Source: Ridgeia piscesae
Lineage: Eukaryota; Annelida; Polychaeta; Sabellida; Siboglinidae
NCBI GenBank assembly: GCA_025642075.2
Contig: JAODUO010000573.1
Location: forward strand, 62,001-126,000
Reading direction: 5' to 3'
Length of the DNA stretch: 64,000 nt
The notes under the pieces are model-generated. The model saw only the letters and a program-made list of their open reading frames with translations, was not told the DNA's origin and searched no databases. The position numbers and the translations under genes were made by a program. The first letter of the stretch is position 1. Every line of letters begins with the position of its first letter. This document shows positions 11,023 through 55,600 of this stretch, piece by piece.

Positions 11023-11465
11023 TCACTGCTGCATGAACTCCTCAAAGTTAAACTCCTCTCCACCAGGTGGCAGTGCAGTCTCCTGTCGCCCCTGCGCTAA
11101 ATCGTTATCATTTTCTTCGTCTGACTCTGACACTGCGAGATCAATATCAATTCCTGTAGTGCCTTGTTCAACCGAGTCGCCCTGTGCTGCGTTTGACGCC
11201 ACCTGGTTGTTTGCAAAGGAACGAAAGAACTCGTTCGGATCGAAACTGTTCTCGTCATTGAAGTCATACTGTGACATCTGCAGTGCATTCTGGGACTGGT
11301 CGCCGGCAGTTGACTCTGCGGCAGCGTATGCGTAGTCTTGCGCATTGTCGTCGTACGTGTAGTTCAGTGCCTCGCTCTGATTGGCTGTCTCGTCCGTTTC
11401 CATGGTATCATCGTCACGTGTTTTCTGGTGGTCCTCCGAATCGCTGCCACTTGAACTGAGTTTTG
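11023..11465 (-). CDS. TAF1: TAF1 coding exon 42 (C terminus and stop)
   Basis: 147 residues after the split codon. Opens with [10 protein letters not shown], matching QLSESGSDSD near the vertebrate C terminus. It then diverges into an acidic, Q/N- and aromatic-rich tail with repeated D/E-F pairs ([18 protein letters not shown]) ending [11 protein letters not shown] and TGA at 11023-11025. Acceptor TTGTTGCAG. The tail is longer than I expect and resembles an acidic interaction or activation segment; that role is inference. Confidence 0.95.
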
Positions 11466-12596
11466 CTGCAACAAATGTCATTGGCTGGTTATTGCTATTA
11501 TGTCAATATAATGTGGTCCTCCAGGATATAATTACACTTGCCAAAGTTAGCTGTCTATGCCTTGTCCCATGAATTTCTTATTTTGGCAGAAATGTAAATC
11601 GTTTAATCTCACCTGGCATGGCTAAGTTAGCTGTCTTGTTTCACAAATTTTGTATTTTGGCAGAAGTGTAAAACGTTTAATCTCACCTTGCAATGTCCAG
11701 TGTATTTTTTTCGACAAATAACCCAAATTAAAAATACTGTTCACAGCATGTTTAAAATAAATATGCTCCAAAGTAAGTGATCATGACTTTAATATAAATA
11801 TTAAAACTAATAAAATACATCATTCAGAAATATGCATACATTAAAAACAGTTGATGATGAATGAAAACAAAACAGGTGAAAATGACATAATTTCTCAAAA
11901 CACTTCTTTAAAAAAATCTTCAGTTTTAGCAACACATCCAAAGTTACTGAAGATATTTCAGCAAATAATGTCTCAATTTAATAGGCTAGATGTTGCTATA
12001 ACAATAATAATCTGACGACATTATTCTGTGCCACAAATCTAGTAACTGTAAACATTCAGAGGTGCATTATAGCACTACAATTTATTTTTAAAGTTAAAAC
12101 AGAAGTGAATTTTGTAAAACAAAATAATGAACTGATCAGTATAAATAAATAATATTAGTCATAATACTAGTAATATACTACTAAATAAAAATTAATTATA
12201 ATACAAGTTAAAAATAAATAAATAATAAAATCGTTGATAAATGGTCGACCCTAAACTGTCCTAAGTGAATTGAACTCACAGAAGTAGTTCTGATTCTTTC
12301 CTTCGTCATCATCATCAGAGTTCTCTGGGGTAATCTGCAGATCCTGAGCAAGACTGTCGTCTACGTCAGAGCTGCCGCGACCGCCCTGAACACACAGGCA
12401 ACGTCACAACAACATTCAACACAGTTATTATAATAATAAAGTTTATTTACGACAAAAGTCCACAATATACATAAGACACCTGTGAAAATATTCAGATATA
12501 CCCATGCTGTGGAATGACTTTTTTATTTAAAAATATATAATAAAGTTTAATTATGACAAATGTCAAAATACAGAAGATACATGTAAAATATATATA

Positions 12597-12662
<66 letters not shown>

Positions 12663-15600
12663 GAATAACAAATAATATTTAAAATGCACTATAAGATTAC
12701 TAAAGGTAGTGACAGTAATAGCAAACATTACATAATACAAGTTATATGATACAAGGTCCAGTCCAACCCAGTGAACTGCAGCAATGGAAAAGTGACTAAA
12801 CTGTCTGTTCATAGTCCACATACCTGTTCATAACCCTGACAGTCCACATACCTGTTCATAACCCTGACAGTCCACATACCTGTTCATAACCCTGACAGTC
12901 CACATACCTGTTCATAACCATGACAGTCCACGTACCTGTTCATAACCCTGACAGTCCACATACCTGTTCATAACCATGACAGTCCACGTACCTGTTCATA
13001 ACCCTGACAGTCCACGTACCTGTTCATAACCCTGACAGTCCACGTACCTGTTCATAACCCTGACAGTCCACGTACCTGTTCATAACCCTGACAGTCCACA
13101 TACCTGTTCATAACCCTGACAGTCCACATACCTGTTCGTAACCCTGACAGTCCACGTACCTGTTCGTAACCCTGACAGTCCACATACCTGTTCCTAACCC
13201 TGACAGTCCACGTACCTGTTCATAACCCTGACAGTCCACGTACCTGTTCATAACCCTGACAGTCCACGTATGTTCTAACCCTGACAGTCCACGTACCTGT
13301 TCATAACCCTGACAGTCCACTACCTGTTCCTAACCCTGACAGTCCACGTACCTGTTCATAACCCTGACAGTCCACGTATCTGTTCATAACCCTGACAGTC
13401 CACGTACTGTTCTAACCCTGACAGTCCACGTACCTGTTCATAACCTGACATCCAACCTGTTCAATAACCCTACAGTCCACTACATGTTCGATAACCATGA
13501 TCGTCCACTAACTGTCTAACCTGACAGTCCACGACTGTTCTACCCGACAGTCAGTTCTGTTCTTAACCTGACAGTCCACGTCCGTCTTAACCCTCAGTCC
13601 ACGACTGTTCATAACCCTGGAGTCCAATCCTGTTCAACCTGAAGTCAGACTGTTCGTAACCTGACAGTCCAGACCTGCAAACCTGACCGTCCACGTCTGT
13701 CATACCACAGTCCACGACCTGTCATAACCACAGTCCACTACTGTTCATAACCTACAGTCCACGTCCTGTTATAACCGACAGTCCACATACTGTCATAACC
13801 CTGACAGTCCACACCTGTTCATAACCATGACAGTCAGACTGTTCATACCCATGACAGTCCACGACTTTTATTTAACTGACAGTCACGTACCTGTTCTAAT
13901 CCTGACATCCACGACCTGTTCAAAACTGACAGTCCACGTACTGTTCTAACCCTGATATCCACTATGTTCATAACCCTGACAGTCCACTACTGTATCATAA
14001 CCCTGACAGTCCATACTGTTATAACCCTGACAGTCACATACTGTTCTAACCCTACAGTCCACTACTGTTCATAAGTGACAGTCCACATAGTTCATAACCT
14101 GACAGTCCACATACCAGTTCATATGACAGTACACGTACCTGTTCAAACCAGTGACACTCAGTACTGTTCATAACCCTGACAGTCCACGTACTGTTCATAA
14201 CTGAATCCACATACCTGTTCATAACCATGACAGTCCACGTACCTGTTCTAACCCTGACAGTCCACGTACCTGTTCATAACCCTGACAGTCCACGTACCTG
14301 TTCATAACCCTGACAGTCCACGTACCTGTTCATAACCCTGACAGTCCACGTACCTGTTCATAACCCTGACAGTCCACGTACCTGTTCATAACCCCGACAG
14401 TCCACGTACCTGTTCATAACCCTGACAGTCCACGTACCTGTTCATAACCATGACAGTCCACGTACCTGTTCATAACCCTGACAGTCCACTACCTGTTCAT
14501 AACCCTGACAGTCCACGTACCTGTTCATAACCCTGACAGTCCACGTACCTGTTCATAACCCTGACAGTCCACGTACCTGTTCCTAACCCTGACAGTCCAC
14601 GTACCTGTTCATAACCCTGACAGTCCACATACCTGTTCATAACCCTGACAGTCCACATACCTGTTCATAACCCTGACAGTCCACATACCTGTTCATAACC
14701 ATGACAGTCCACGTACCTGTTCATAACCCTGACAGTCCACGTACCTGTTCATAACCCTGACAGTCCACATACCTGTTCATAACCCTGACAGTCCACATAC
14801 CTGTTCATAACCCTGACAGTCCACATACCTATTCATAACCCTGACAGTCCACATACCTGTTCATAACCATGACAGTCCACGTACCTGTTCATAACCCTGA
14901 CAGTCCACATACCTGTTCATAACCCTGACAGTCCACGTACCTGTTCATAACCCTGACAGTCCACGTACCTGTTCATAACCCTGACAGTCCACATACCTGT
15001 TCATAACCCTGACAGTCCACATACCTGTTCTAACCCTGACAGTCCACGTACCTGTTCATAACCCTGACAGTCCACATACCTGTTCTAACCCTGACAGTCC
15101 ACGTACCTGTTCATAACCCTGACAGTCCACATACCTGTTCATAACCCTGACAGTCCACGTACCTGTTCATAACCCTGACAGTCCACGTACCTGTTCATAA
15201 CCCTGACAGTCCACATACCTGTTCATAACCCTGACAGTCCACATACCTATTCATAACCCTGACAGTCCACGTACCTGTTCATAACCCTGACAGTCCACGT
15301 ACCTGTTCATAACCCTGACAGTCCACGTACCTGTTCATAACCCTGACAGTCCACATATCTGTTCATAACCCTGACAGTCCACATACCTATTCATAACCCT
15401 GACAGTACACGTACCTGTTCATAACCATGACAGTCCACGTACCTGTTCATAACCCTGACAGTCCACGTACCTGTTCATAACCCTGACAGTCCACATATCT
15501 GTTCATAACCCTGACAGTCCACATACCTATTCATAACCCTGACAGTACACGTACCTGTTCATAACCATGACAGTCCACGTACCTGTTCATAACCCTGACA

Positions 15601-18600
15601 GTCCACGTACCTGTTCATAACCCTGACAGTCCACGATATCTGTTCATAACCCTGACAGTCCACTACCTGTTCTAACCATGACAGTCCACGTACCTGTTCA
15701 TAACCCTGACAGTCCCGTACCTGTTCTTAACCCTGACAGTCCACGTACCTGTTCATAACCCTGACAGTCACGTACCTGTTCATAACCCTGACAGTCCACG
15801 TACCTGTTCATAACCCTGACAGTCCACGTACCTGTTCTAACCCTGACAGTCCACGTACCTGTTCATAACCATGACAGTCCACGTACCTGTTCTAACCCTG
15901 ACAGTCCACGTACCTGTTCTAACCCTGACAGTCCACGTACCTGTTCTAACCCTGACAGTCCACGTACCTGTTCGTAACCCTGACAGTCCACGTACCTGTT
16001 CTAACCCTGACAGTCCACGTACCTGTTCTAACCCTGACAGTCCACGTACCTGTTCATAACCCTGACAGTCCACATACCTGTTCTAACCCTGACAGTCCAC
16101 GTACCTGTTCATAACCCTGACAGTCCACGTACCTGTTCATAACCCTGACAGTCCACATACCTGTTCTAACCCTGACAGTCCACGTACCTGTTCTAACCCT
16201 GACAGTCCACGTACCTGTTCTAACCCTGACAGTAGTACCTGTTCATAACCCTGACAGTCCACGTACCTGTTCATAACCCTGACAGTCCACGTACCTGTTC
16301 ATAACCCTGACAGTCCACGTACCTGTTCATAACCCTGACAGTCCACGTACCTGTTCATAACCCTGACAGTCCACGTACCTGTTCATAACCCTGACAGTCC
16401 ACGTACCTGTTCATAACCCTGACAGTCCACGTACCTGTTCGTAACCCTGACAGTCCACGTACCTGTTCGTAACCCTGACAGTCCACGTACCTGTTCGTAA
16501 CCCTGACAGTCCACGTACCTGTTCGTAACCCTGACAGTCCACGTACCTGTTCATAACCCTGACAGTCCACGTACCTGTTCATAACCCTGACAGTCCACGA
16601 TACCTGTTCATAACCCTGACAGTCCACATACCTGTTCATAACCCTGACAGTCCACGTACCTGTTCATAACCCTGACAGTCCACGTACCTGTTCATAACCT
16701 GACAGTCCACTACCTGTTCATAACCCTGACAGTCCACATACCTGTTCTAACCCTGACAGTCAACGTACCTGTTCATAACCCTGACAGTCCACGTACCTGT
16801 TCATAACCCTGACAGTCCACGTACCTGTTCATAACCCTGACAGTCCACGTACCTGTTCATAACCCTGACAGTCCACGTACCTGTTCATAACCCTGACAGT
16901 CCACATACCTGTTCTAACCCTGACAGTCCACGTACCTGTTCAGTAACCCTGACAGTCCACGTACTGTTCGTAACCCTGACAGTCCACATACCTGTTCGTA
17001 ACCCTGACAGTCCACGTACCTGTTCATAACCCTGACAGTCCACGTACCTGTTCATAACCCTGACAGTCCACGTACCTGTTCGTAACCCTGACAGTCCACG
17101 TACTGTTCATAACCCTGACAGTCCACATACCTGTTCATAACCCTGGTAGTCCTCATCGTCTCCCTCCACGTCCACAAAGTCATCGTCCCGCGACATATTC
17201 TGAAACAATGTCAATTCCATTTAACCCTTTAAACACCACATCGGTTTATGAAACGTGTTCCGCACTGAATGCATAAAACCATACAAATGTTGAATGTTAT
17301 GTTTTTTTGGTCTAAATGTGTGCATCATTACAGTGGATGATGTCAGTTTGTGTTGATGATGTCACATGACCTGTAGTACCATGTTACTCACCCTCATGCC
17401 GGCGAGGGCGTTCTCTTCCTCACCCTCGTTCATCTCTTGACGCAGCCCGAAGGAGTCGTTTGACATTTCTGCCGTTGTCACATTTTCCTTCATTACTCCC
17501 AGACTGTCAACACTCTCCATGTCAGCACCTACAACATGTGACACTTGCGTCATACTGTCAACACTCTCCATGTCAGCACCTACAACATGTGACACTTGCG
17601 TCATACTGTCAACACTCTCCATGTCAGCACCTACAACATGTGACACTTGCGTCATACTGTCAACACTCTCCATGTCAGCACCTACATGTGACACTTGCGT
17701 CATACTGTCAACACTCTCCATGTCAGCACCTACAACATGTGACACTTGCGTCATACTGTCAACACTCTCCATGTCAGCACCTACAACATGTGACACTTGC
17801 GTCATACTGTCAACACCCTCCCCCCAGCACCTAACCCCTGTGACACTTGTGTCATACTGTCAACACTCTCCATGTCAGCACCTACAACATGTGACACTTG
17901 CGTCATACTGTCAACACTCTCCATGTCAGCACCTACAACATGTGACACTTGCGTCATACTGTCAACACTCTCCATGTCAGCACCTACAACATGTGACACT
18001 TGCGTCATACTGTCAACACTCTCCATGTCAGCACCTACAACATGTGACACTTGCGTCATACTGTCAACACTCTCCATGTCAGCACCTACAACATGTGACA
18101 CTTGTGTCATACTGTCAACACTTTCCATGTCAGCACCTACAACATGTGACACTTGTGTCATACTGTCGACACTCTCCATGTCAGCACCTACATGTGACAC
18201 TTGTGTCATACTGTCGACACTCTCCATGTCAGCACCTACAACATGTGACACTTGCGTCATACTGTCAACACTCTCCATGTCAGCACCTACAACATGTGAC
18301 ACTTGCGTCATACTGTCGACACTCTCCATGTCAGCACCTCGTGACACTTGCGCACGTCTGTCACACTCTTCATTCAGCACCCAAGATGTGACACTTGCTC
18401 ACTACTGTCAACACTCTCCATGTCAGCACCTACAACATGTGACACTTGGTCATACTGTCAACACTCTCCATGTCAGCACCTACAACATGTGACACTTGCG
18501 TCATCACCCCGTCAACACAATACTTCCATCGACAATCAGCACCTACAACATGTGACACTTGCGTCATACTGTCAACACTCTCCATGTCAGCACCTACAAC

Positions 18601-21239
18601 ATGTGACACTTGCGTCATACTGTCAACACTCTCCATGTCAGCACCTACAACATGTGACACTTGCTCATACTGTCAACACTCTCCATGTCAGCACCTACAA
18701 CATGTGACACTTGCGTCATACTGTCAACACTCTCCATGTCAGCACCTACAAGCATGTAGACTACTTGCTGTCATACTGTCAACACTCTCCATGTCAGCAC
18801 CTACAACATGTGACACTTGTGTCATACTGTCAACACTCTCCATGTCAGCACCTACAACATGTGACACTTGCGTCATACTGTCAACACTCTCCATGTCAGC
18901 ACCTACAACATGTGACACTTGCGTCATACTGTCAACACTCTCCATGTCAGCACCTACAACATGTGACACTTGCGTCATACTGTCATTGACACTCTGCCCT
19001 GTCAGCACCTACAACATGTGACACTTGCGTCATACTGTCAACACTCTCCATGTCAGCACCTACAACATGTGACAACTGCGTCATACGGTCAACATTCTAT
19101 ATGTCAGCATCTATGATATGTGACACTTTTCCATGTCAGCACCTACAACATGTGACACATGCTATCGACACTCCCCATGTCAACATCTACACATGTCATA
19201 CTGTCGATACATACAACCTTGGGTCATTGACCCCACAATGTCATGTGACCTACCGTCAGCGTTTCCAGTGAATGACGTCCCTGTGATGACACTGTCAGTC
19301 TCTGCAGCATCAAGTGCTGCCTCCTCTGTCGCCCTGATGGAGTCTTCCAACTGTGCCACGTTCTCCTCCTGCTGTCAACGACAACACAAACCTGTCACTT
19401 CATCAAGTCTTGAATGGCTTTTACAAGCACTGAATTTGTACTGTGACGTCAATATTGTCATTGTAAATATAACGATGCCATCTACAGGTGAATCTATGCA
19501 GACATTTCGGATACCTTTACGTCATTACACTTTGTATTTGAATGTACCGTAACCGTGAAGACTTTTTACGGGGGTGTTCAGAGGGTATTATTTCCGGTGA
19601 CACCCTGTGAATGTGAATCAGTGTTTTCGAGCACCATTTACCACAGTGAATCTATAAATCTATACAAACTTAACACTTTTGCAAGTCCAAGCAATATGTG
19701 CAAATAAGGGGCAAATGGGGTCATGTAGAAAAATGCAAAGCATGAGAGGCCACCTAGCAGCACAGTCGTACAAGACACTCGGAGAAAACTGGGATCAGTG
19801 CACCTACAGATCTACACCAAGTGTTTCAAGTATTTATATCACTCCACACAAACCCCAGCACTGTGAATAATTAACATAACACATACTATTAAAAACACTA
19901 CATTATAGTAAATAAAATAATTAATCACACAAACAATCAACGATTCTGAAATGTTAATACACTACTCTCTGCCTTGAACTGGTAATCAATTATTAATATA
20001 GATTTAACAAGATTTAACAAGATTGCCACCTAGAGATTCAACTCTAGATGGCAGGTGGACCAGGAAGCCATTTGGCTTATCGAGAGTCCAACTTATCTAT
20101 CTAAATGTACCCCGCCCTTCTTAGGTATATGTCGATTTTATTTTTTAAATATATTAACACTACTAGCACCTACACAATCAGCTGATAATCTGTTCCATTC
20201 GTTTACTGTTCTTTGTGAAAATGAAAATTTCTAATATCTAGTCTACACTGCTTCTTTGCTAATGTAACTCCATGTCCTCTAGTCCTTCTCTCTTCCTTGA
20301 CAGTGAAAAAAATATTTCTGTCAATATTTTCATACCCATTCAATATTTTAAACACCTCAATCTGATCTCTCAATCTTCTGGTTTCTAGTGTTGTTAAAAA
20401 TATAAAGACGACTTACTTCGCCGAGAGCCTGCTTGCATACTTCCACCATCTTCTCCGCGGTGTGTGTGAACTGGCTGTCCTTGCCGTTATATGCATAACT
20501 GTTTTTGAAGATGAGTTCAACATCTTCCAGGAAGGCCTCCCGAGTCTTATACATCTGGGCATTGATGTTCTGCACAAGAAAGTCTTGTCACTTTGTAACT
20601 GCTAAACTTCAATGTTTGTTTTGTTCCTTGCTAATGTAAACAATGTAAGATACATATTAGAGTTTCTCGCAAACATTGAGATAGCATTAACTGTTAGGGT
20701 AGATTATTTTTAAGTAATAAGAGAAGCATTATAGATGATGTTTAAATAATGTCAGTAACTATAAGTAATATCACTAACCTTAAGTAATGTGGTGAGGTCC
20801 ATTGGCTTCTTAATGACGTCATAGTAATCTTTGACAAATTTCTTGTTGACAGGTTGATGGAAGATGTTACCCTGGAACATAATAGTACATTTCTGTTATG
20901 TAAGCCCTACTCATTAAACAGCAACAGATAGCCAGATATACTCTTTATTTTTAATATGATGTAAAATATTGCACAAAACAGCAGTACAGCGATATAGATA
21001 CATAATACAATGGTAATTGTAATGTCATTTATGATATTACAGACTGTACTCCTTTTACAAATGTGATCACAGTAATTTTTTCAGTATAAAAATGCTTACG
21101 GTAATGTTTAAAATTAAAGTTGTATAATAAATAATGCAGGAGACTCCTGTCAAGACAAAAGTCACTTTACATAATTTAAAACAATCGCAGAAAAAACTTG
21201 CATATTGAACATGCATGCACATGTACACACACACACCCT

Positions 21240-21277
<38 letters not shown>

Positions 21278-21289
21278 CCCCACACACAC

Positions 21290-21323
<34 letters not shown>

Positions 21324-24300
21324 ACGAGCGAGTGAACATGTACACACGCACGCATCCATGCACACATGCATGCACGCACGCACATACACACGCACGCACA
21401 CACAGTATCTCAGATATATTCAAACATATATTACCAGTACACTTTCTATTATATGATCACGATCATTTAGTGACTCTGATGTTGTAGGTTTTCTAGAATT
21501 TGTCAACCAATCAGTGAACTGACAACAGCTGACTTCCACTACCTCGGCCCTCACACAAACACTGACTTCCACTACTCCGGCCCTCACACAAACACTGACT
21601 TCCACTACTCCGGCCCTCACACAAACACTGACTTCCACTACCCGGCCCTCACACAAACACTGACTTCCACTACTCCGGCCCTCACACAAACACTGACTTC
21701 CACTACTCCGGCCCTCACACAAACACTGACTTCCACTACTCCGGCCCTCACACAAACACTGACTTCCACTACTCCGGCCCTCACACAAACACTGACTTCC
21801 ACTACTCCGGCCCTCACACAAACACTGACTTCCACTACTCCGGCCCTCACACAAACACTGACTTCCACTACTCCGGCCCTCACACAAACACTGACTTCCA
21901 CTACTCGGCCCTCACACAAACACTGACTTCCACTACTCCGGCCCTCACACAAACACTGACTTCCACTACTCCGGCCCTCACACAAACACTGACTTCCACT
22001 ACTCCGGCCCTCACACAAACACTGACTTCCACTACTCTGGCCCTCACACAAACACTGACTTCCACTACTCCGGCCCTCACACAAACACTGACTTCCACTA
22101 CTCCGGCCCTCACACAAACACTGACTTCCACTACTCCGGCCCTCACACAAACACTGACTTCCACTACTCGGCCCTCACACAAACACTGACTTCCACTACT
22201 CCGGCCCTCACACAAACACTGACTTCCACTACTCCGGCCCTCACACAAACACTGACTTCCACTACTCTGGCCCTCACACAAACACTGACTTCCACTACTC
22301 CGGCCCTCACACAAACACTGCTTCCACTCCCTCACAAACATGACTTCCACTACTCGGCCCTCACACAAACACTGACTTCCACTACTCGGCCCTCACACAA
22401 ACACTGACTTCCACTACTCCGGCCCTCACACAAACACTGACTTCCACTACCCGGCCCTCACACAAACACTGACTTCCACTACTCCGGCCCTCACACAAAC
22501 ACTGACTTCCACTACTCCGGCCCTCACACAAACACTGACTTCCACTACCCAGGCCCTCACACAAACACTGACTTCCACTACTCCGGCCCTCACACAAACA
22601 CTGACTTCCACTACTCCGGCCCTCACACAAACATTGACTTCCACTACTCCGGCCCTCACACAAACACTGACTTCCACTACTCCGGCCCTCACACAAACAC
22701 TGACTTCCACTACTCCGGCCCTCACACAAACACTGACTTCCACTACTCCGGCCCTCACACAAACACTGACTTCCACTACTCCGGCCCTCACACAAACACT
22801 GACTTCCACTACTCGGCCCTCACACAAACACTGACTTCCACTACTCCGGCCCTCACACAAACACTGACTTCCACTACCCAGCCCTCACACAAACACTGAC
22901 TTCCACTACTCCGGCCCTCACACAAACACTGACTTCCACTACTCCGGCCCTCACACAAACACTGACTTCCACTACCTCGGCCCTCACACAAACACTGACT
23001 TCCACTACTCCGGCCCTCACACAAACACTGACTTCCACTACCCGGCCCTCACACAAACACTGACTTCCACTACTCCGGCCCTCACACAAACACTGACTTC
23101 CACTACTCCGGCCCTCACACAAACACTGACTTCCACTACCCCGGCCCTCACACAAACACTGACTTCCACTACTCCGGCCCTCACACAAACACTGACTTCC
23201 ACTACTCCGGCCCTCACACAAACACTGACTTCCACTACCCGGCCCTCACACAAACACTGACTTCCACTACTCCGGCCCTCACACAAACACTGACTTCCAC
23301 TACCCGGCCCTCACACAAACACTGACTTCCACTACCCGGCCCTCACACAAACACTGACTTCCACTACTCCGGCCCTCACACAAACACTGACTTCCACTAC
23401 CCGGCCCTCACACAAACACTGACTTCCACTACTCCGGCCCTCACACAAACACTGACTTCCACTACTCCGGCCCTCACACAAACACTGACTTCCACTACTC
23501 CGGCCCTCACACAAACACTGACTTCCACTACTCTGGCCCTCACACAAACACTGACTTCCACTACTCCGGCCCTCACACAAACACTGAGTTCCACTACTCT
23601 GGCCCTCACACAAACACTGACTTCCACTACTCCGGCCCTCACACAAACACTGACTTCCACTACTCTGGCCCTCACACAAACACTGACTTCCACTACTCCG
23701 GCCCTCACACAAACACTGACTTCCACTACTCGGCCCTCACACAAACACTGACTTCCACTACTCCGGCCCTCACACAAACACTGACTTCCACTACTCCGGC
23801 CCTCACACAAACACTGACTTCCACTACTCCGGCCCTCACACAAACACTGACTTCCACTACTCCGGCCCTCACACAAACACTGACTTCCACTACTCCGGCC
23901 CTCACACAAACACTGACTTCCACTACTCGGCCCTCACACAAACACTGACTTCCACTACTCCGGCCCTCACACAAACACTGACTTCCACTACTCCGGCCCT
24001 CACACAAACACTGACTTCCACTACTCCGGCCCTCACACAAACACTGACTTCCACTACTCCGGCCCTCACACAAACACTGACTTCCACTACTCCGGCCCTC
24101 ACACAAACACTGACTTCCACTACTCCGGCCCTCACACAAACACTGACTTCCACTACTCCGGCCCTCACACAAACACTGACTTCCACTACTCCGGCCCTCA
24201 CACAAACACTGACTTCCACTACTCCGGCCCTCACACAAACACTGACTTCCACTACTCCGGCCCTCACAAAACTGACTTCCACTACCCGGCCCTCACACAA

Positions 24301-36300: not shown

Positions 36301-37489
36301 ACCTCCCACCTAGAGAGCTTCTTGATCTATCAACAACATCAACATCGACACAATCAATTTATTTATACACTAAAATCTAAAGTATAACTGGGTTCAGCAA
36401 TGTTTACAATATACTAAAATATAAAATCAATAATAATACATTAACTAATGCTAAAACGTGGCCAACTAAAATACATTTGGAGAAGCCAAATGACACATCT
36501 AAACCTACGAAGTAGAAAATCTAAAATACCACTAGGAAGTTAAATAAAAAGAAATACACTGGTAGTTACATTCAAATAGGGTAACTAGTCGGCGACACCA
36601 AATTACAATCTTTAAATGACGGAAGTTGACACTGAAAAAGCTCTGTGCTGCACAAATGCCTCAGTGACACCAAATTTATTATATTGTATAAATAACAGAA
36701 GTTGTCATTTGAGAAGTATCACCAACCACCTCTGCCTCAGTTACACAAAATTTAATTTATAAGGAAATTGCCACCGAAAAAGCATTATGACCCACCTCTG
36801 CCTCAGCGACACCAAACTTTCTCAGCAGCTGTTTAGCATCCTTCAGTGACAACTTGCGGAGGTCAGCGTCTGTACCGGTCACTGTGCGCTTGACCGGCGT
36901 CTGGCTGTTAGACTCGTCCTGGCAACAGAGAGTGGTCACTGTGGTCAGGCCAGGTGCAACAATTGGATCTGTTTTATATCAGTTCTTTGGTAGTGAGAAT
37001 ATGACAGGATTCTCAGAGCAACATCCACGCCATTTCATAGTTACTAAACAGGGACAATTTGTTTAGCCACAAATTGAACTTATATAATATAGTAACGAGA
37101 ATATATACAGACTGGACAGTTGACAGAACCCTGCGGGGTGCTGGAAACAACTAGACTGTAAACAATAAGACAGAGCATATAGTCCTTCATAGAGGTAAAG
37201 GGTTAAATCTTGATACTCTGGCTAGCAACTAGCACAGGAATGTGATACTGTCAGTTAAAAATAACAGATAAGATCAAATAAAGGTTTGCCCGAGGATTCT
37301 CACCTTTGACTGTTGGGGCTTGTTGGGGACTTTGACGTAGGAGAAACCCTCTCCGCACCCTGAGGGATCTGCTACCCCAGTGAGGGCGAGTAGGCAACGC
37401 CCCTTCATTGCTGCAATGTACGCTCTCGTTGTGTTCCATGGAGCAGCTTTCACCTTAGAACAATGACGGTCTTGTTAGAACAAACGTAC

Positions 37490-37524
<35 letters not shown>

Positions 37525-37543
37525 CTTACGTGTGTGTGTGTGG

Positions 37544-37611
<68 letters not shown>

Positions 37612-43600: not shown

Positions 43601-46600
43601 CACACTGTTACCAGTACATATCACAAGGAAGTAAACACGTTATCTCACTGTTGTCGCAAGCATACGGACACCAACTACACACACACATTAAGTGTGTTAA
43701 CTCACTGTTGCCGGGTGCGTATGACGAGGAAGTCTGTGTCGGGGACCTGGTGGCTGTAAATGGTGGCGCGGAACATGTTGTTCTCGAAGGCGGGGATGCA
43801 CTGCCCCGGGTTGAGGGGGCTAAGGAAGGGCGAGGTGTGTGCGTAGGCCAGCTCTCCGTACTTGAACTGGGGCGGATTGTTGTCCTTGCCAGGTTTCTAC
43901 AGCCATAGGAAAACAACCGCATTAAGCAGCAGGGAATGTACACTTCTGGACATGTTAAATTGAAGGAAATTTAAGACTTTTCAAGGCTAGTTGAAAACAA
44001 AATTCAAGACTGTTTCAATGACATATATATTTTTGTCGCAGTAAATTAAGTAAACATTATGCAGAAAACACATCCGTTCCAACCACGTGCTGTATTCTCA
44101 TTTTTCAAGCCAACTATCCTAAAGGTTTGCCTTGCCCATCTTTTGAAACAAATAGCATCATACTTGACCAATTTATTTACTTGACTGGGAACAAAATGGT
44201 ATTTACCTGTGGAAATGCTGATTACCCAATGAGCACGCAAATTAATTTTGTGGGTTGGCTTTCCCGATAATGACATAGCGCTAAGACTTCTGCCCAACCA
44301 CCATTAGCCTAAGGCTATTACTCATCACAACAGTCGAGTAAAAAATTATTTGAATTAAAGACTTTTCAAGACAACTTTGTAAAATTCAAAGATTTCAAGG
44401 CCTTGAATTTGGTGCAATAAAACTGAAGGCCGTTCAAGACTTTCTAGGCTCTGTCAGGATGCTCTAACGTGGACAATGAGTGAGTGAATAAGGAGAATGT
44501 TCCATTAAACAAACTCAGTGTGTGGTCGTCACAGTGTATTGTGCAGAAATACATTAGCTGCAGTGGCGCCACCAAGTGAGTGTAACATGCATTAATGCAT
44601 AATTGTCTCCCTTCTCATTGAATGTGGTGCACATCTGCATCAAATAAATCGGTCACAAATCAACAGCCAACATTAATTTCAAACACTGCATTCACATTAT
44701 TTTTAAGGTGTACGAAAAATGTACGAAATACATAATGCCTACATTAACCGAACACTAACAAATGAGAGAGTAGACACTTACCCGCTTGTAGTAGTTCTTG
44801 ACCTTAGTTGCCATGCCGACCTGCATCATGAGGGGTGGGAACTCCTCCGAGTACTCGGCCAGAATGATCTCCCCGTCCTTCCCAGTCAGGTCCTCCGGGG
44901 TACGCATGAAGAACATCTCCCCTCCCCCTGATGCTGCCCTCTCCTGCTCCCTCAACTGTAGGACGCCATCGCAGATATGTAAATCTTTATTGATTTATAT
45001 ACATCCGTTTTGTTTTCGCAAAATTGTAATTCATCAGTTTTTACGATGACAGTTGGTGACAAATTGTCAATAAAGTATTACTAAAATTCTTTCATCAATA
45101 ATTCGCCACTAACGTGTTTGATGTTCGTGAATCTCTTTTCAAGAATGTTCAAGATCTGTGCAAACCCTGGTTGATATACAGGAGATATAAATGTGAATTC
45201 TTGCCCACGCGTGACTTTGAATGATATTCTCGTGTGACGGGAAATTGTTGCTTCTTTATCAGTACACAACGTGTGGCTTCCTGTCCAGCACAATTTTGTA
45301 AATAAAAAAGTCAACCAATTTTTTATTAATGCTTGATGTCCGCCTTAGCGGGGAATGAAAACCAAAATATCTTGTCCTTCATCACAGGGTCCAGTGAATA
45401 TATGTTGTGCTTAAAAATACTTGCATCAAAATGGTACATTGTAAATTGGAATCAACAAAATCAGTACGTGTGATGCTTGTTCGCTAATTTCAACTGTAAT
45501 GTATAAATAACACATGTAACAGTTTCAGTGGCAAAACAGAAAACAACCAAAAACAACCCTACAGAACAATTTCATCCACTACTCAGAGTAAAATGGAACA
45601 TCAGTTTTAAATAAATAGTTTGACATTGCATCAATGTGCTGTGTTTAGCACTGATGCGTCATCATAATAATACAATTTATTTGTGTAGCACCCGAATCAA
45701 TAGTATTGCTCTCAGGCGCTTTACATAAATGTACAAATAGTAGCTAAAATTTGATGATAAATTATTATTAAAATAGATATATGTTTATATGGATGATAAA
45801 TTATTATTAAAATAAATATATACATATGTATATAATATATATATATATATTTATATATATAAACATTATAAATATAAGCCTATACATGAAACAGTAAAAT
45901 AAGTTATGCCATCGCAATATATTGCTACATCAAGTCATTGTCACAACCCTAGGATCATGAGAGATGGAAGTCACATGACCACGGGGGTCAAGTTCACTGA
46001 CCTTGGCCTTGCGTCGGATGGTCTTGAGGAGTGGGAGGACGGGGTGGGGACCGGGAGTACTCATCACCCCGTGGGAGTATTTCTTGAGGGGGGGTCGGTG
46101 GAAAGTCCGCAGCTTCATCGGGCCCAGGTGTGTGGGGAAGAACGGTTGTCGCAGCTCACAAGCCACCGTGGAATGCTGGGAAAGTGACAAGACATATGCA
46201 CGTGACATTCACACACCAGGGTGCCGTTTCGCTAAAATAAAAAGCTTGTAAAGAAATCGTCGTTAAATAAAATCTGTTGTTAAAGTAAATGATTTTATTT
46301 TAAATCGTAAATATCCACTGCTGTATTACGTAGGACATTATTTCTATGACACACCAGTGACAATATCTGGCTGGTGCGTTGTGGTGTTTACGATTCTCAG
46401 GTATTCAAGATCAGTGTGTTAAGGATCAAAATTGAATTTAAAAGCGCAAAATCGGGTTTAGGAGCTATTAACAACATTTGTGAAATGGTCCCCTGGTGTC
46501 AAACTGAGTTACTGCAATGACGGTATATTCACATGCCTAAAACTAATTACATTAAATCAGTGAATATAACATTTTGCGTCTGAAAATATACAGACGTTAT

Positions 46601-49600
46601 GTACTGTACATATCTGGATAAATATTTGGATACGTAAAATAATATGCACTTTGAATATAGAGATATTTCAATTTGTTGGTTAATTGTACTGAATATATTT
46701 ACCTTTCATTATTTTTTTTTTTTTTCCAAATAATTTTGGCTGTATACGGTAGATAAAAAGTATTCTTTTTGTAGACTGAAAACATTGTGTCTGAATTCAG
46801 TCATTATGGCAGGTTTTATACCTATTACTAAGCTGTTCATCCACTTCCTGCTAATAATTACCCAGGCTTCCACAGAGAATAGTAGCAAGATCTCTCCACA
46901 AGTAGAAATAAGCACCAACTCAAATTTACTCAGATTGTAAAACCATAGCATGGGACAATATGCACCAGACGAGTTGGATAACTGGACTATACCAAGGACC
47001 ACTATCAAGAGAGGACCATAAGTAAGAGACCTGTAGGAGACCGCCCCCTAGATTGGTCCTCAGGGCATTGTCAGTCGTCAACTTGGGGTTGTAGTACTCG
47101 TCATTCGACAGGTTGAAAGGGTTTCTACTCTGCAGCGTGTTAGGTTCCTCCTATAAAGTGACACGTCTCATCAAGTACAGTCAGATATAATCATCAAGAA
47201 CATTTCTCTTAGACCTTAACCTAATTCTAACAGTCATTAATGATTAATCATCAAATTTGCATATTTTATAAATTAAAGAAATTTCAACATACGCTGTTTA
47301 ACATTATCTATCACATATGTATTTGTATCAGGCAAATTTACTAGTAAAAACATTTCTCAATAGAATACGACAGGTGTATCGAAAGAATAAATTTACAAAC
47401 TTATCACATGATTACTTACTGGTACTGTTGGCGACTTACCAAAACAAGTTATAATATACCTGCTGTGTAGATTAAAAGGAGGTTTATGTTCTTTGTTTTA
47501 CTAAACATTATAAAATTACATTACAATGTTCTAATTGAGCATTTCTTGTTGTTCAAAGGTATTTTGGGAGAAGACAGGTTTTAAAATGGTGGTGTGCTGC
47601 TTTTGAAGGCTTTATAACATTTATTGACATTAAAAGTGCTGCCCCTATCAGATTAGTACGTCTTCAGAATGATACAGCTGTATTGTTCAAAACTTTGAGT
47701 GAGTGTCATGGTGTTTCTAAAACAATTTTGAATTTTACTTTGTTGAAAAATATCAGGGTGGTGTGTTCAAATGAATACACTATCTTTCCAGTAAAAATGA
47801 AAAAAACACTCCTTTTGATCTAATGAAGCTAAGCTCTGCAAGTGAAAGTACACACAACTAGTAAACAAACAGCCAACCTGAACAAATCTTGAAACGAAAC
47901 AAGAACACTGAAGTTTATTGTAATAGTGTTTTAGTTGTAGAGACGCATAAGAGTTCAGTCTTTCTCACACATGTTCAGCATTCAAATAATCAGCAAGAGT
48001 GTAATTGTTTATTTATGAAAAAAATTACACACCTTCTTGAAAATGACTTACATTTTTTAAAAATTATTATTTGCACTTTTGCTTTGCAGACATGATTAAC
48101 TAAAGCATGTCTGTGTCACTTGTGCCATTTTCATAATTAAAATATAATAATAACCAATGCAATGTAAAATGTTGCTCCAAGTGGCTGTATTGCATTTCTT
48201 AGGATCTGAAATTTTAACAACCTAAAAGTTGTGACATTGCCAAATGTTTTGCATCAACACTTGAGAGAAAGACTGAGAATAACCGAATTGTGAGTCTAGA
48301 AAACAACACAAATTTATTATATTAATCAATACTTCATAATTGTCCTCAGAATCCTGAAAACAAGCAAATCAACAACACTTGCATTTTCATTTTGTTACAA
48401 CACTGAGTTCAGAAATAGAAATGTAAATTTATGCTCACTGTAATATGTTTACACCAGTTTAGTGAAACAAGTTTATACATCAATTGGCTAATGCAAATTA
48501 ATCAATCTAAACAAATGTAACACATATGTAAACATCCGGTACCCAAAACATGTAAGCCTGGAAACTATCAACACACGCATGAATAATTATAAAATCTATC
48601 GAAATATCTTCCTGCTTCCCGTCCTTACAATTCCCACTTCGTACCTCAATCTCCTCTTCCTCTTCCTTAAGTATCCCAGCCTTTCCAAGAAGGATCTTTG
48701 ACTTCTTCACCTCCTACAAAGAATTAAACGGTGAGAAAACTGGAAAATGAACAGCCTGTTGCTGATACCTGGCAGATGTATCACACGTCTAAGTGTCTCA
48801 GTGACCACTGCAGTCGTGTCTCAGTGACCAGTGCAGTCATGTCTCAGTGACCAGTGCAGTCATGTCTCAGTGACCAGTGCAGTCACGTCTCAGTGACCAG
48901 TGCAGTCACGTCTCAGTGACCAGTGCAGTCAGTCTCAGTGACCAGTGCAGTCATGTCTCAGTGACCAGTGCAGTCGTGTCTCAGTGACCAGTGCAGTCAA
49001 GTCTCAGTGACCAGTGCAGTCATGTCTCAGTGACCAGTGCAGTCATGTCTCAGTGACCAGTGCAGTCATGTCTCAGTGACCAGTGCAGTCGTGTCTCAGT
49101 GACCAGTGCAGTCATGTCTCAGTGACCAGTGCAGTCATGTCTCAGTGACCAGTGCAGTCGTGTCTCAGTGACCAGTGCAGTCGTGTCTCAGTGACCAGTG
49201 CAGTCGTGTCTCAGTGACCAGTGCAGTCGTGTCTCAGTGACCAGTGCAGTCATGTCTCAGTGACCAGTGCAGTCGCGTCTCAGTGACCAGTGCAGTCGTG
49301 TCTCAGTGACCAGTGCAGTCGCGTCTCAGTGACCAGTGCAGTCGTGTCTCAGTGACCAGTGCAGTCGTGTCTCAGTGACCAGTGCAGTCGTGTCTCAGTG
49401 ACCAGTGCAGTCGTGTCTCAGTGACCAGTGCAGTCTGTCTCAGTGACCAGTGCAGTCCGTCTCAGTGACCAGTGCAGTCGCGTCTCAGTGACCAGTGCAG
49501 TCATGTCTCAGTGACCAGTGCAGTCGCGTCTCAGTGACCAGTGCAGTCGTGTCTCAGTGACCAGTGCAGTCGTGTCTCAGTGACCAGTGCAGTCGTGTCT

Positions 49601-52600
49601 CAGTGACCAGTGCAGTCGTGTCTCAGTGACCAGTGCAGTCGTGTCTCAGTGACCAGTGCAGTCGTGTCTCAGTGACCAGTGCAGTCGTGTCTCAGTGACC
49701 AGTGCAGTCGTGTCTCAGTGACCAGTGCAGTCGTGTCTCAGTGACCAGTGCAGTCGTGTCTCAGTGACCAGTGCAGTCGTGTCTCAGTGACCAGTGCAGT
49801 CGTGTCTCAGTGACCAGTGCAGTCGTGTCTCAGTGACCAGTGCAGTCGTGTCTCAGTGACCAGTGCAGTCGTGTCTCAGTGACCAGTGCAGTCATGTCTC
49901 AGTGACCAGTGCAGTCGTGTCTCAGTGACCAGTGCAGTCATGTCTCAGTGACCAGTGCAGTCGTGTCTCAGTGACCAGTGCAGTCATGTCTCAGTGACCA
50001 GTGCAGTCGTGTCTCAGTGACCAGTGCAGTCATGTCTCAGTGACCAGTGCAGTCTGTCTCAGTGACCAGTGCAGTCATGTCTCAGTGACCAGTGCAGTCA
50101 TGTCTCAGTGACCAGTGCAGTCATGTCTCAGTGACCAGTGCAGTCATGTCTCAGTGACCAGTGCAGTCATGTCTCAGTGACCAGTGCAGTCACGTCTCAG
50201 TGACCAGTGCAGTCACGTCTCAGTGACCAGTGCAGTCACGTCTCAGTGATACACCATACATGCAACTGATACAAACACATGTACATTCCAATTATTTTAT
50301 TGCATTTATTACCTATTTAAATTTATTAATATTTTATAAATACTGGCACAATTGTAAAGTGCCATGAACAATTGCGGATCTGGCCAATTGAATATATTAT
50401 TATTATTATTACTACAAACGCATGGGATAAATACATTATTATTATTACCAATTTGTAGCATTCAGCAAATGCTAAGTGAGACAAAAAGAAGCACTAAGCG
50501 AACCTTCTCCTTCTTTGTGGACGTCTCCTCCTGTTCTTTCTCCGGACTTCGATCCTCGGGAATTCCCAGAATAATGTTCTCGTCATTGGGGTCTAGGACA
50601 AGGGTCGGTGGTTCTGGGATCCGGTCCATCGCCTGCGGTTAACATCAACATTCAGAGCATTTTGCATGGATGGTGCATGGTCTTCATTTTACATGGAAGG
50701 TGCATGGTCCTCATTTTACATGGCAGGTGCATGGTCCTCATTTTACATGGAAGGTGCGTGGTCCTCATTTTACATGGAAGGTGCATGGTCCTCATTTTAC
50801 ACGCAGGGTGTGAGGTCCTCATTTTACATGGAGGGTGCATGGTCCTCATTTTACATGGAAGGTGCATGGTCCTCATTTTACATGGAAGGTGCATGGTCCT
50901 CATTTTACATGGAGGGTGCGTGGTCCTCATTTTACATGGAGGGTGCGTGGTCCTCATTTTACACACAGGGTGTGTGGTCCTCATTTTACATGGAGGGTGC
51001 GTGGTCCTCATTTTACATGGAAGGTGCGTGGTCCTCATTTTACATGGAGGGTGTGTGGTCCTCATTTTACATGGAAGGTTCGTGGTCCTCATTTTACATG
51101 GAGGGTGCGTGGTCCTCATTTTACATGGAAGGTGCGTGGTCCTCATTTTACATGGAGGGTGCGTGGTCCTCGTTTTACATGGAAGGTGCATGGTCCTCAT
51201 TTTACATGGAAGGTTCGTGGTCCTCATTTTACATGGAGGGTGCGTGGTCCTCATTTTACATGGAAGGTTCGTGGTCCTCATTTTACATGGAGGGTGCATG
51301 GTCCTCATTTTACATGGAGGGTGTGTGGTCCTCATTTTACATGGAGGGTGGGTGGTCCTCATTTTACATGGAAGGTGCATGGTCCTCATTTTACATGGAG
51401 GGTGCATGGTCCTCATTTTACATGGAGGGTGCATGGTCCTCATTTTACATGGATGGTGCATGGTCCTCATTTTACATGGAGGGTGTGTGGTCCTCATTTT
51501 TTAAAGTTTTAGGATGTTGCAAATTGTTGTGAAAAACAGTAAAACCCAAGTAAAAAGCGCAATTGAACACCATCATGAATTCTCCTGAAAGCATTCAGCC
51601 ATGTTGCAATCACTACGCAAAGTTTGAATAATTCTATTTGTACAGAAACATCCACCACTGTCTATAGCCATGTACTCATTCAGTGAACTGAAGCAACAGA
51701 GTGAATAAACTTGCCCAAGATTTGAAACAACAACAAAGGAATTGAACTAAAAGTCTCAAGATTGAGTCCGACACTCTAGCCACTACACCACCTGGTGGAC
51801 GAATGAAGAACAAACCTCAGCGTCCCATATGACGTCATCCTCCCAACAGCCGTAGACGAGATCTTCATTCTCAATAGGGAACATGCTGTACCACGTTGTG
51901 TCCTCAGCTCGATCCCGATCCTGCCCTGTGTGTCGGGAAAAGGACATTTTTATATTTTGTCTTTAATAAAAAAAAATGTATGCAATCTATCAAGAAAAGG
52001 ACATTTTGTAATTTTATTTTAAAATATTTATTTTTTATATTATAACTGTTCATTAACATTAACACATACTTGCTTACATCCGTTTGTTAAACACGCCCAT
52101 CCTCAGGAAGCAGAATATGGGTTTACAGGATATTTGTAAATATTACATTTGCTGTGATATAAATTAATGTCAGAGTTAACAAAGGTTGTGACTAATACAC
52201 ACAACTAACCAGCATACTTTACAATCTCAAACGATTCCACAAAATATGTATAATATTACCAACAATTAATTGCCTCTGTTCAATGTAGAGTCTTGAACCT
52301 CAATCATGGCAAGAATCTCAAAAGAGCGAAGAATTTATAATTGTTTTCGTTTAATGAAGCAGCTCTATTTTTGTAACAAAGAAAAGCATCAAAGGCCTGA
52401 ATTACACGACAATGTACAATGTAAAGTTCGACAGATTCACATTTGTGGTGGCCATATTGTAAACTTCATGGACCTGGTTGTTACGTGACAGGTCACATGA
52501 CGGATCCATCAATCCCAACTGACATTCCAGTCCCACAAATCTTTCCCTTATACAATCCTCACTGAAACAACTTTTCACTGTTTTCTTCGAGAAGAAAACC

Positions 52601-55600
52601 CCCAATATAAAAAATATGGCTGACAGATTCAGACTTGTTGATGTCAAACAGTTCCACATGCATGTCAGCCATTTTATAAACTTGATGGACCCGGTTGCTA
52701 AGCAACGTGTCACATGATGAATCCATCAATATAAAACCCAAGAAATCCCTAGTTGCCTTCCCCACTTACCAAGTCCTCCGTGCCCTTGCATACTCACTCC
52801 CTTCTGCATGGCAGCCCCCAGGTATTTCCCCATGGAGAAGCCCCCTGGTTTACACCCCCCAAGTAGGCCAGGCTGAGGCTTGCCAAGCACTGCAACATTC
52901 AATAAACACGTATCACCTTATATGTGGTCTTTACCATTTCATCTTAGGTAACACAGACATTGTAACATTTTAATCAAGTCAAGTCAAGAGTGCAGTAAAA
53001 ATACTATATTTTAACCAGTATTTTAACTGTTGCACTGACAATACGTGAACTGTGAAGACAATACATGAACTGTGAAGACAATACTGAACTGTGAAGACAA
53101 TACGTGAACTGTGAAGACAATACGTGAACTGTGAAGACAATACGTGAACTGTGAAGACAATACGTGAACTGTGAAGACAATACGTGAACTGTGAAGACAA
53201 TACGTGAACTGTGAAGACAATACGTGAACTGTGAAGACAATACGTGAACTGTGAAGACAATACGTGAACTGTGAAGACAATACGTGAACTGTGAAGACAA
53301 TACGTGAACTGTGAAGACAATACGTGAACTGTGAAGACAATACGTGAACTGTGAAGACAATACGTGAACTGTGAAGACAATACGTGAACTGTGAAGACAA
53401 TACGAATGTAGACAATCGTGAACTGTGGACAATACGTGAACTGTGAAGACATACATTAAAAACGTGAACTGTGAAGAAAATTTAGTGAACTGTGAAGACA
53501 ATACGTGAACTGTGAAGACAATACGTGAACTGTGAAGACAATACGTGAACTGTGAAGACAATACGTGAACTGTGAAGACAATACGTGAACTGTGAAGACA
53601 ATACGTGAACTGTGAAGACAATACGTGAACTGTGAAGACAATACGTGAACTGTGAAGACAATACGTGAACTGTGAAGACAATACGTGAACTGTGAAGACA
53701 ATACGTGAACTGTGAAGACAATACGTGAAAGTGAAGACAATACGTGAACTGTGAAGACAATACATGAACTGTGAAGTAGTGACTCTGCATCATCTGTAAA
53801 GAGAACTCTAAAACATAATTTTTTATTCTAACTTCTTAAATGACATGTTAGATTTGCGTCTTTTAGCCTTCTATATATTTATTTGTTTACTTATTAATTT
53901 TATTAGTCTGTTTATATGATACATTGATATGTAAAAATAATTTTATTTGTGTACGGTGAAAATACCCTAAGAGAAAAAGTTGCTGATTTTGTTTTAAAAA
54001 ACTGAAAAACTAACAGTTACCAATTTTTGGGTCTTGAGAACCCTAGGAGGCCTTAAATAGGTCAATTTAAAATAGTGATAGTATCCTACGAAATGACTAT
54101 GCAAAATTATAAATAGATCTTCAACGGTTTCTGAGATATGAGAGCTAATTGTAGATGGTGGACGGCGCACATAGGGTGATGCCATACGACCGTAGGACAT
54201 TTGGTCAAAAGTACAAAAAATGACAGATGGACAGGAAAACACAACTGAAGGTGACCTTGGGGAGTGAGTGGGGCTGTTAGTAGTCTGTGTATGCAGTTTT
54301 GTTGTCATCCCTTAATAAATAGCCATTAAATAACCTGTGAAATATACATACAGTGAACTCATCCAAATTAGTGGACTCGTCCTACCTTACCTACTCCCAC
54401 TCACAGTGGACTCACCCTACCCTACACTCCCCCACCATTGATAATGGACTCACCCTGCTGGGCGTACTGTTCGGCGGTGCGACTGTTACAGCTGGGGATC
54501 CACCCCGCGGTGACGCCCCTCTCCCCCATCGACTGGAGCACCTTCTGTCGCACCTCGTCACCATTCCAGATGACGTCATCCTCCCACTGCGTCTGTGTCA
54601 CCATGTGGTACGCCTCCTCCGGCAGGTGTGTCACTGACGGCGGTGACGCGTCACTGTCGTGGGGTGGATGGTCATCATCTGATGACACGTCAGCTTCCTC
54701 CTCCTTCGGCTGACAACAACGGGAAAGTGATGGACCGTGTAGACGTGGGCAGGTGATTCTAGTTTTTGTTTTTACTTTAAAATAAAAAACTTGTTTTTTC
54801 TTCATTTTTTAAATTACATACATTTTTTTTTTTAAATAATAACTGTATTTAAACACCATCAAATCTGGGGGTAATGCCCTGTTCAAGGGTGTGTAAAACA
54901 TAAATCTTAAACATAAAATCTTACATAAGAGAAATAATAAGTAAGTAAATTATGAGTTATGAACTAAAGGTTCATAAGACAAAATCCTAGTTTATTATAA
55001 AGTACCGTACGTAGTTATTTCCAGAGTGTAGCTGTGCTAACAATCTGAAATCAACTCGCTATTTCAATTCAATCTTCTGAAACTATACCCCTCTACCTTT
55101 TGTAAAAATCCAAACATATTTGTCTGAAATTACTTTTCCACCATAAATCTTCGGCGGTTCCGTGCTCCAATGACGACTTTTGTCTGTCCCTGTCTATGAT
55201 TACATCAAATGATTTTATGTGCTGCGCCTCTGAACTTCAATTTTCTAGCATACAGACTCTGTAGAAGGGTTGGATTGGCCATTGCAGTTACACATGTTAC
55301 CATCTCGACATTGTTTTCAGTTGCATCAGCTGAGACTCTTTCGCTCTCAAAATGTGTTCATCCCATCATAAACAAAGTACCTGCCTTCCCTCTCTCTACC
55401 CAGTGCATGTCTCACTACTGCTGTTGTTCACGCTGGATTCACTTTGAGATATATGATGAGTAACTACTCTTGCTGTGATATGTAAATTATATTTCCTAAC
55501 AACTGCTTTGACCTACTGCGTTTTTAATCTTATATAATTTTTAGAATTTATATTTATTTATCATATGATATACTTTCTTTATTAATCATTTTATCTCTTT

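Follow-up and report, generated by a model that had tools for sequence, protein, structure and literature searches.

Minisatellites that straddle splice junctions have been described in lancelets and birds. In amphioxus, tandem duplications called mirages span the 5' or 3' intron-exon boundaries and carry the splice signals in many copies, whereas the coding exon stays intact (PMC3087553, PMC3902484). Mirage loci are Adh3, the globins BflGb6 and BflGb9 and troponin C, with imperfect cases in PGBD5, and the units measure 10-72 bp in Adh3 and ~150-160 bp in the globins (PMC3087553, PMC3902484). Length and somatic instability are reported for the Adh3 mirages (PMC3087553). A normal mRNA is a further feature of mirages. 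Exon stuttering, described in chicken in 2026, affects 236 introns of 115 genes (PMC12954441). Here a lateral part of the exon, together with its donor or acceptor, recurs throughout the intron. Over 90% of the copied exon parts lie within 1 base of the border, and they measure 20-187 bp (median of 36) and occur in 1-44 copies (PMC12954441). Purely intronic stuttering occurs alongside, lengths vary within the species, exon stuttering is mostly found on the GC-rich dot chromosomes (190 of the 236 introns), and the word "mirage" is absent from the portion of this text examined (PMC12954441). Tandem duplications around splice signals are also described for ATP2A1, in fission yeast and, as a variant, for potato RdRp (PMC4974935). 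The present analysis concerns a window of 64,000 nucleotides of the annelid Ridgeia piscesae (GenBank assembly GCA_025642075.2, contig JAODUO010000573.1, positions 62,001 to 126,000 of the forward strand), which holds the TAF1 gene, and the neighbouring gene KIF3A. The arrays at the exon edges of these genes are junction-spanning minisatellites like the amphioxus mirages and the chicken exon stuttering, here in an annelid. An earlier note on the window had drawn the amphioxus parallel, and the published accounts bear it out (PMC3087553, PMC3902484).

Exon-derived arrays at five TAF1 junctions

The minus-strand product of the window matches human TAF1, the largest TFIID subunit, in the PDB.

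11023..61534, minus strand: TAF1 gene with 42 identified exons; the window includes both its start codon and its stop codon

The exon model combines open reading frames, consensus splice sequences and comparison with orthologues; its splice sites are predicted, and the exon numbering used earlier agrees with it. Translation of the model showed a reading frame that is open from exon 1 to exon 35 and from exon 36 to the stop codon. The frame break between exons 35 and 36 is located away from any junction array. The public Ridgeia piscesae protein P0002 is 100% identical across the 571 residues searched. The coding exons align to three orthologues and are intact at the junction arrays. The window contains no N, whereas the published Illumina draft has a contig N50 of 10.4 kb (PMC9921365), suggesting that the window probably derives from another, long-read assembly.

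All 82 exon edges of the model were tested for exon-derived copies by comparing 28 exonic bases with the adjoining intron against 200 dinucleotide shuffles. Five edges carry such copies: the acceptors of exons 17 and 39 (z of 15.3 and 9.9) and the donors of exons 40, 21 and 15 (z of 7.6, 7.2 and 6.8). The sixth-best edge reaches 3.1, and the control with internal exon probes gave 0 of 175 above z 5 and 1 of 175 above z 4. In a preceding test with 25-mers, in which the other introns served as control, 8 of the 82 edges exceeded all other introns, as did 6 of 463 internal probes. A margin of at least 5 was found for five edges (the acceptors of exons 39, 17 and 32 and the donors of exons 40 and 21) and for 0 of 463 internal probes. 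The exon 32 acceptor was rejected, since it has a 25-mer margin of 6 yet falls outside the 14 best edges of the shuffle test. The exon 15 donor has a 25-mer margin of only 3, but a z of 6.8 in the shuffle test. The five arrays and their exons are as follows.

17131..17199, minus strand: exon 40, its last 22 bases being the exonic part of the array unit
12813..17152, minus strand: exon 40 donor array, 28 bp unit of 22 exon-derived bases plus GTACGT or GTATGT, 160 full units
17392..17528, minus strand: exon 39, its start peptide single-copy in the aligned orthologues
17503..19128, minus strand: exon 39 acceptor array, 51 bp unit of 26 intron and 25 exon bases, 31 full units
39507..39648, minus strand: exon 17, from the exon model and orthologue alignment
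39616..42471, minus strand: exon 17 acceptor array, 68 bp unit of 35 intron and 33 exon bases, 42 units
43706..43896, minus strand: exon 15, from the exon model
43143..43733, minus strand: exon 15 donor array, decayed, with up to 28 exonic bases at 9 places, the real junction among them
36796..36918, minus strand: exon 21, from the exon model
36589..36819, minus strand: exon 21 donor array, decayed, with 24 exonic bases in 3 copies, the real one among them

Four strong arrays, at the donors of exons 40 and 15 and the acceptors of exons 39 and 17, had been claimed in the earlier note with units made of the exon edge and its splice site; they are present as described, and the exon 21 donor adds a fifth that was missing from that list. 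Both polarities, also claimed, are represented by two acceptors and three donors. The exonic part of the units measures 22 to 33 bases in TAF1, so that the upper limit of the earlier range of 13 to 33 stands and the lower one does not. All five arrays extend intronward from an intact exon edge. The copied exon part abuts the exon border in all of them, which is partly due to the design, as the probes were cut there. AG|GT is found at four of the five junctions (the exception is exon 15), the TAF1 background being 7 of 41 for acceptors and 25 of 41 for donors.

The exon-side peptides occur once in each of the three aligned orthologues, VFIYRLF in all of them and ESVDSLG in Paralvinella and partly in the others. 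Thus, the exon is the source of the array, in agreement with the earlier proposal that the arrays grew by duplication of the junction. The sequence itself shows both the anatomy of the arrays and their exon origin.

Internal structure of the arrays

The exon 40 array is the largest in copy number. Its unit matches the exon at 20 of the 22 exon-derived bases, including all 15 nearest the junction. GT is present at +1,+2 in 147 of the 160 units and AG|GT in 128. The base before the junction (86%) and donor +4 (68%) are among the least conserved positions. The copy belonging to exon 40 itself has TAC, whereas 152 of the 159 other units have TGT, as expected if selection removes conversion into the exon. 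In the exon 39 array, AG is found in 30 of the 31 full units, and the exon-side units of exons 17 and 39 are identical to the array consensus.

The exon 17 array has AG|GT in 42 of 42 units, and its differences are confined to four columns. The real site and its 41 copies are identical from -19 to +32 bases around the junction. Therefore only position and wider context can distinguish them, and the array constitutes a natural test of splice-site choice. A run of 9 variant units is present twice, an arrangement reached by 1 of 2000 shuffles, indicating growth by multi-unit blocks.

The arrays of exons 15 and 21 are decayed. The spacing of the exon 15 copies is irregular, mostly 47 to 102 bp, and the decayed copies (families D1 and D2) show 61 to 83% identity to a reference copy. 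Copy counting with a score floor yields one copy each for the decayed exon 15 and KIF3A k8 arrays. The range from fresh to decayed arrays asserted earlier is thus real, with the arrays of exons 15 and 21 at its decayed end.

The exon 17 array is stop-free in all three coding-strand frames across 2.86 kb, and the 51 bp unit of exon 39 is a multiple of three. One frame of the intron 9 array is open. The first two features would suit arrays that are coding repeats, that is, exon sequence with the true exon ends elsewhere. However, stops occur in every frame of the arrays of exons 39, 40, 15 and 21, and the exon-side peptides of TAF1 have one copy in the aligned orthologues. Ridgeia P0002 holds one copy of such a peptide, and the KIF3A peptide is single in the protein of Lamellibrachia. 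We find coding repeats barely credible.

The intact splice dinucleotides (42 of 42, 30 of 31 and 147 of 160 units) would also be expected if selection kept the copied splice sites for redundancy or regulation, to buffer or tune splicing. Such conservation is expected in young arrays anyway, and decayed arrays exist at exons 15 and 21. In the exon 40 array, the poor conservation of the base before the junction and of donor +4 argues against a retained function. AG|GT, which possibly makes splicing between copies harmless, is missing at KIF3A k6 and k13, for which reason it was also dropped as a junction requirement. Selection for redundancy therefore appears very improbable.

Junction arrays in KIF3A, myosin genes and other species

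The contig survey covered 200 kb of the same contig (C573) with relaxed Tandem Repeats Finder settings (period at least 12, score at least 200). It gave 15 arrays of 18.5 kb in TAF1 and 30 arrays of 25.4 kb in the remaining 213 kb, of which 32.5 kb are N. KIF3A, the gene next to TAF1, matches Lamellibrachia satsuma protein P0202 with 97% identity over query residues 400-632. Each of its three parts, k1-k8, k9 and k10-k13, has an open frame that agrees with P0202; we think that the k9 acceptor of the model is 2 bases off. The edge test (24 edges, 150 shuffles) found exon-derived copies at four edges, namely the acceptors of k13 (z of 14.6), k6 (10.4) and k8 (9.0) and the donor of k12 (12.3), with the next edge at 1.5. 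The k8 acceptor has a single decayed copy. The k12 donor array comprises ~40 copies of a 37 base unit with 27 exonic bases, and the k13 acceptor array ~19 copies of a 74 base unit with 63 exonic bases. These two arrays abut within one intron (C573:147383-150376) and cover 2,861 of its 2,994 bases (96%). The exon peptide copied in KIF3A is single-copy in the Lamellibrachia protein.

A search with the PF00063 profile gave 75 myosin exon matches; the sample drawn from them is small and partly chosen and shows existence, not frequency. No junction array was found among the top-ranked exons (0 of 8; eight of nine, as the second crosses stops and was skipped) or at four loci picked for odd rows (L037 to L040). 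Four loci chosen for clustered exons showed a junction array at 3 of 15 exon matches: a donor array on C285 with the unit AACATGACACG|GTCAGTGAC, which decays with distance, an acceptor array on C103, and a donor array on C411 with the unit TGGTCCACAG|GTGAGTC. The mismatches in one of the myosin arrays, counted away from the exon, are 0,0,0,1,2,1,1,3,4,7,7. The units hold ~10 to 12 exonic bases, fewer than the TAF1 edge test needs, so array overlap and visual inspection served to judge them. With four of 24 KIF3A edges and three myosin exons, sequence comparison supports the recurrence of junction arrays in other genes and with it the generality proposed earlier.

Several myosin candidates were rejected. 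Long open frames in the myosin rows were wrong as a sign of stop-free exon arrays, L037 to L040 having none. On C1015, the doubled rows proved to be adjacent exons of similar sequence, with no junction array. The L033 array ends ~36 bases before its exon, and a match of score 38 near the L039 exon looks like an intron-only repeat. As separate observations, L037 (C1015:211404-214058) holds similar myosin exon pairs (model positions 121-152 and about 91-120 twice), perhaps mutually exclusive exons; a weak copy signal of score 32 lies beside the L042 exon at C103:618749; and the L041 array (C285:269116) ends 10 bases before the exon match at 269127.

Tandem repeats were seen in four of the 201 proteins retrieved with TAF1 queries (best 120 of 1606 and best 120 of 954 matches), strong in two and weak in the other two. 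A tandem repeat with a unit of 32 residues occupies residues 69-206 of Pinctada imbricata P0057, where Ridgeia has its exon 2/3 junction. This unit takes in DKDDSIT, the residues that directly precede the junction; three oyster proteins carry a single copy. Residues 1517-1596 of Paralvinella palmiformis P0035 repeat a unit of 12 residues at the position of the exon 33/34 junction. Both repeats look like annotation reading through junction arrays; for the mollusc protein P0057, a junction array annotated as coding sequence is the probable source. A Pangasius protein, P0001, outscored the own-species match of the query, though it is 79% identical over 82%.

An assembly artefact, in which long reads are collapsed or multiplied at junctions, would make the copy numbers of the long arrays wrong, as they may be, and might account for the conserved exon segment missing beside the intron 35 array (see below). 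However, decayed copies of 61 to 83% identity and ordered internal variants are unexpected of such an artefact, and five genes on four contigs show the pattern. An artefact is thus a highly improbable source of the arrays.

Origin and placement of the arrays

The arrays probably arose by ordinary minisatellite birth straddling an exon edge, with the exon-side unit held by selection. A short tandem duplication, produced by slippage, template switching or repair, would by chance straddle the edge. Such a duplication would be tolerated because the exon-side unit still provides the exon with its normal end and splice site. Growth or shrinkage of the array would then be confined to the intron side, through block duplication, unequal exchange or conversion, and purifying selection would fix the exon-side unit until the array decays. 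The mutational step, the selective anchoring and the use of the exon-side splice site are what we infer from the arrays.

Placement was compared with a null in which a unit of the length of the array is seeded anywhere in the array-free intron or across its edges. An array was counted as a junction array if its unit holds at least 12 exonic bases, or, under a looser rule, if there is any exonic overlap. The CT-rich KIF3A array, the array after k13, the decayed k8 copy and the GA-rich TAF1 array were excluded. The P values are post hoc and depend on present-day intron lengths. TAF1 alone has 5 junction arrays of 14 compared with 1.83 expected (P 0.020; any overlap, P 0.089), and its freshest arrays have 3 of 8 compared with 0.91 (P 0.043). 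KIF3A alone has 3 of 8 compared with 1.23 (P 0.097; any overlap, P 0.215). In the two genes, arrays that lack exon sequence are no rarer than junction arrays, since 14 of the 22 do not span a junction with at least 12 exonic bases. The junction arrays have longer units than the other arrays (Mann-Whitney P 0.011), as chance seeding predicts.

Several points weigh against chance seeding with selective anchoring. In both genes together, 8 of 22 arrays span a junction, compared with 3.07 expected (P 0.004), and counting any exonic overlap raises the expectation to 4.30 (P 0.038). Under a second null, with seeds uniform over the array-free introns, TAF1 has 5 compared with 0.93 expected (P 0.001). 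The arrays of exons 17 and 39 show no gradient of decay with distance from the exon. Moreover, tolerance through correct splicing and continuing growth of the arrays would both have to hold, and we infer rather than observe them.

The placement values suggest an excess of junction arrays, which is no proof of targeting, and they speak weakly for splice-junction targeting. The junction arrays exceed chance (8 of 22 vs. 3.07), which does not show the junction-targeting mechanism proposed in the earlier note. Under targeted seeding, tandem duplication would favour the junctions, e.g. by way of RNA-DNA hybrids or of template switching coupled to splicing and transcription, with the exon edge and splice signal as the natural duplicated unit. 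In addition to the excess, it would fit the intron part of several units, which is hardly longer than the splice signal (6 bases in exon 40, 10 and 11 in KIF3A k12 and k13, and 7 to 10 in the three myosin units), and the KIF3A intron with an array at each end, though the null chances of these two arrays are 0.23 and 0.43. On the coding strand, four arrays are rich in G, namely those of exons 40 and 39 and of introns 35 and 25. However, the strand skew is inconsistent (-0.07 in the exon 17 array, -0.55 in the intron 29 array), and R-loop proneness judged by GC skew, which differs between arrays, was discarded. The 14 arrays that span no junction, the values under the loosest rule and the absence of junction arrays from the eight top-ranked myosin exons also speak against it. 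We regard targeted seeding as unlikely.

The wider proposal, that exon edges are preferred birthplaces of minisatellites through a junction-coupled duplication of exon edge and splice signal into introns that is at work across the whole genome of this annelid and may recur in lancelets, birds and molluscs, is similarly doubtful. If true, such duplication could replace nearly a whole intron from both sides, as in KIF3A, and would make material for new introns and, on failure, destroy exons.

Other TAF1 arrays and a missing segment

Further arrays lie in the TAF1 introns.

32437..33107, minus strand: exon 25 donor array, reaches the donor, ~5 exonic bases, not counted as exon-derived
27584..27766, minus strand: intron array after exon 30, 44 bp unit, from the second intron base, no exon sequence
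26391..26447, minus strand: intron array after exon 32, based on 8 bp, from the second intron base, no exon sequence
21524..24542, minus strand: intron 35 array, 33 bp unit, located where a conserved TAF1 segment is expected
28050..29149, minus strand: intron-only comparison array, 21 bp unit
48793..50249, minus strand: intron-only comparison array, 23 bp unit
50658..51500, minus strand: intron-only array, 27 bp unit, stops ~25 bases from the exon 10 acceptor
53037..53776, minus strand: intron-only comparison array, 20 bp unit

The exon 25 donor had been thought to behave like the strong junction arrays, which its ~5 exonic bases contradict. The small arrays at the donors of exons 30 and 32 do start within the donor, at the second intron base, but their units hold no exon sequence. 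All three were therefore ruled out as exon-derived arrays, with at most ~5 exonic bases. Together, the 15 TAF1 arrays occupy 18,381 of 44,695 intron bases. The GC (guanine plus cytosine) content is 0.496 in the arrays, 0.352 in the remaining TAF1 intron and 0.535 in the exons. Exon-derived bases inside the TAF1 introns amount to 5,369, an undercount for the decayed arrays, compared with 5,817 exon bases.

A conserved segment of ~33 residues (INPLLDD...NS), comprising the bromodomain linker and the start of bromodomain 2, is present in all three aligned orthologues. Translated search did not find it between exons 35 and 36 or elsewhere in the 64-kb window. In their present form, the two exons cannot be joined in frame (gap region 20872-24780 of the window, minus strand). 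In intron 35 the repeat starts ~22 bases past the last recognisable codons, so that a 3 kb minisatellite adjoins the gap. The absence may reflect a true loss, an allele or a gap in the assembly.

Open reading frame fragments with similar peptides occur in introns at about 25766-25989, 30446-30877 and 51512-51746 of the window and perhaps belong to an interspersed repeat family. A tRNA scan of the window found none.

Comparison with known systems

Junction-spanning minisatellites are a rarely described kind, so far from lancelets and birds. Neither an annelid case nor an intron with arrays at both ends was found in print among the papers listed by full-text searches, which covered few subscription papers. 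As in the mirages, the units span boundaries (5 of 82 edges in TAF1 and 4 of 24 in KIF3A), 5' and 3' boundaries are both affected in TAF1, and the coding exon is intact. However, Ridgeia is an annelid and the mirages are from cephalochordates, so that the arrays are called only mirage-like. They reach up to 160 copies, compared with 3 and 6 in the published data on BflGb6, and they occur at both ends of one intron and at five junctions of one gene.

The exonic part of the units falls within the size range of exon stuttering: it measures 22 to 33 bp in TAF1 and, in KIF3A, 27 bp (k12) and 63 bp (k13). The three myosin arrays differ in having only ~10 to 12 exonic bases, and the copy numbers of up to 160 differ as well. 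The setting is also not GC-rich, with a GC content of 35% in the non-array TAF1 intron and 50% in the arrays. The duplications around splice signals of PMC4974935 share the tandem duplication of the surrounding sequence; the Ridgeia duplications enlarge introns. Junction arrays are nevertheless a source of material for intron turnover, as seen from the 5,369 exon-derived bases in TAF1 and the KIF3A intron that they fill almost completely. With the annelid case, three animal lineages are joined: lancelets, chicken and annelid.

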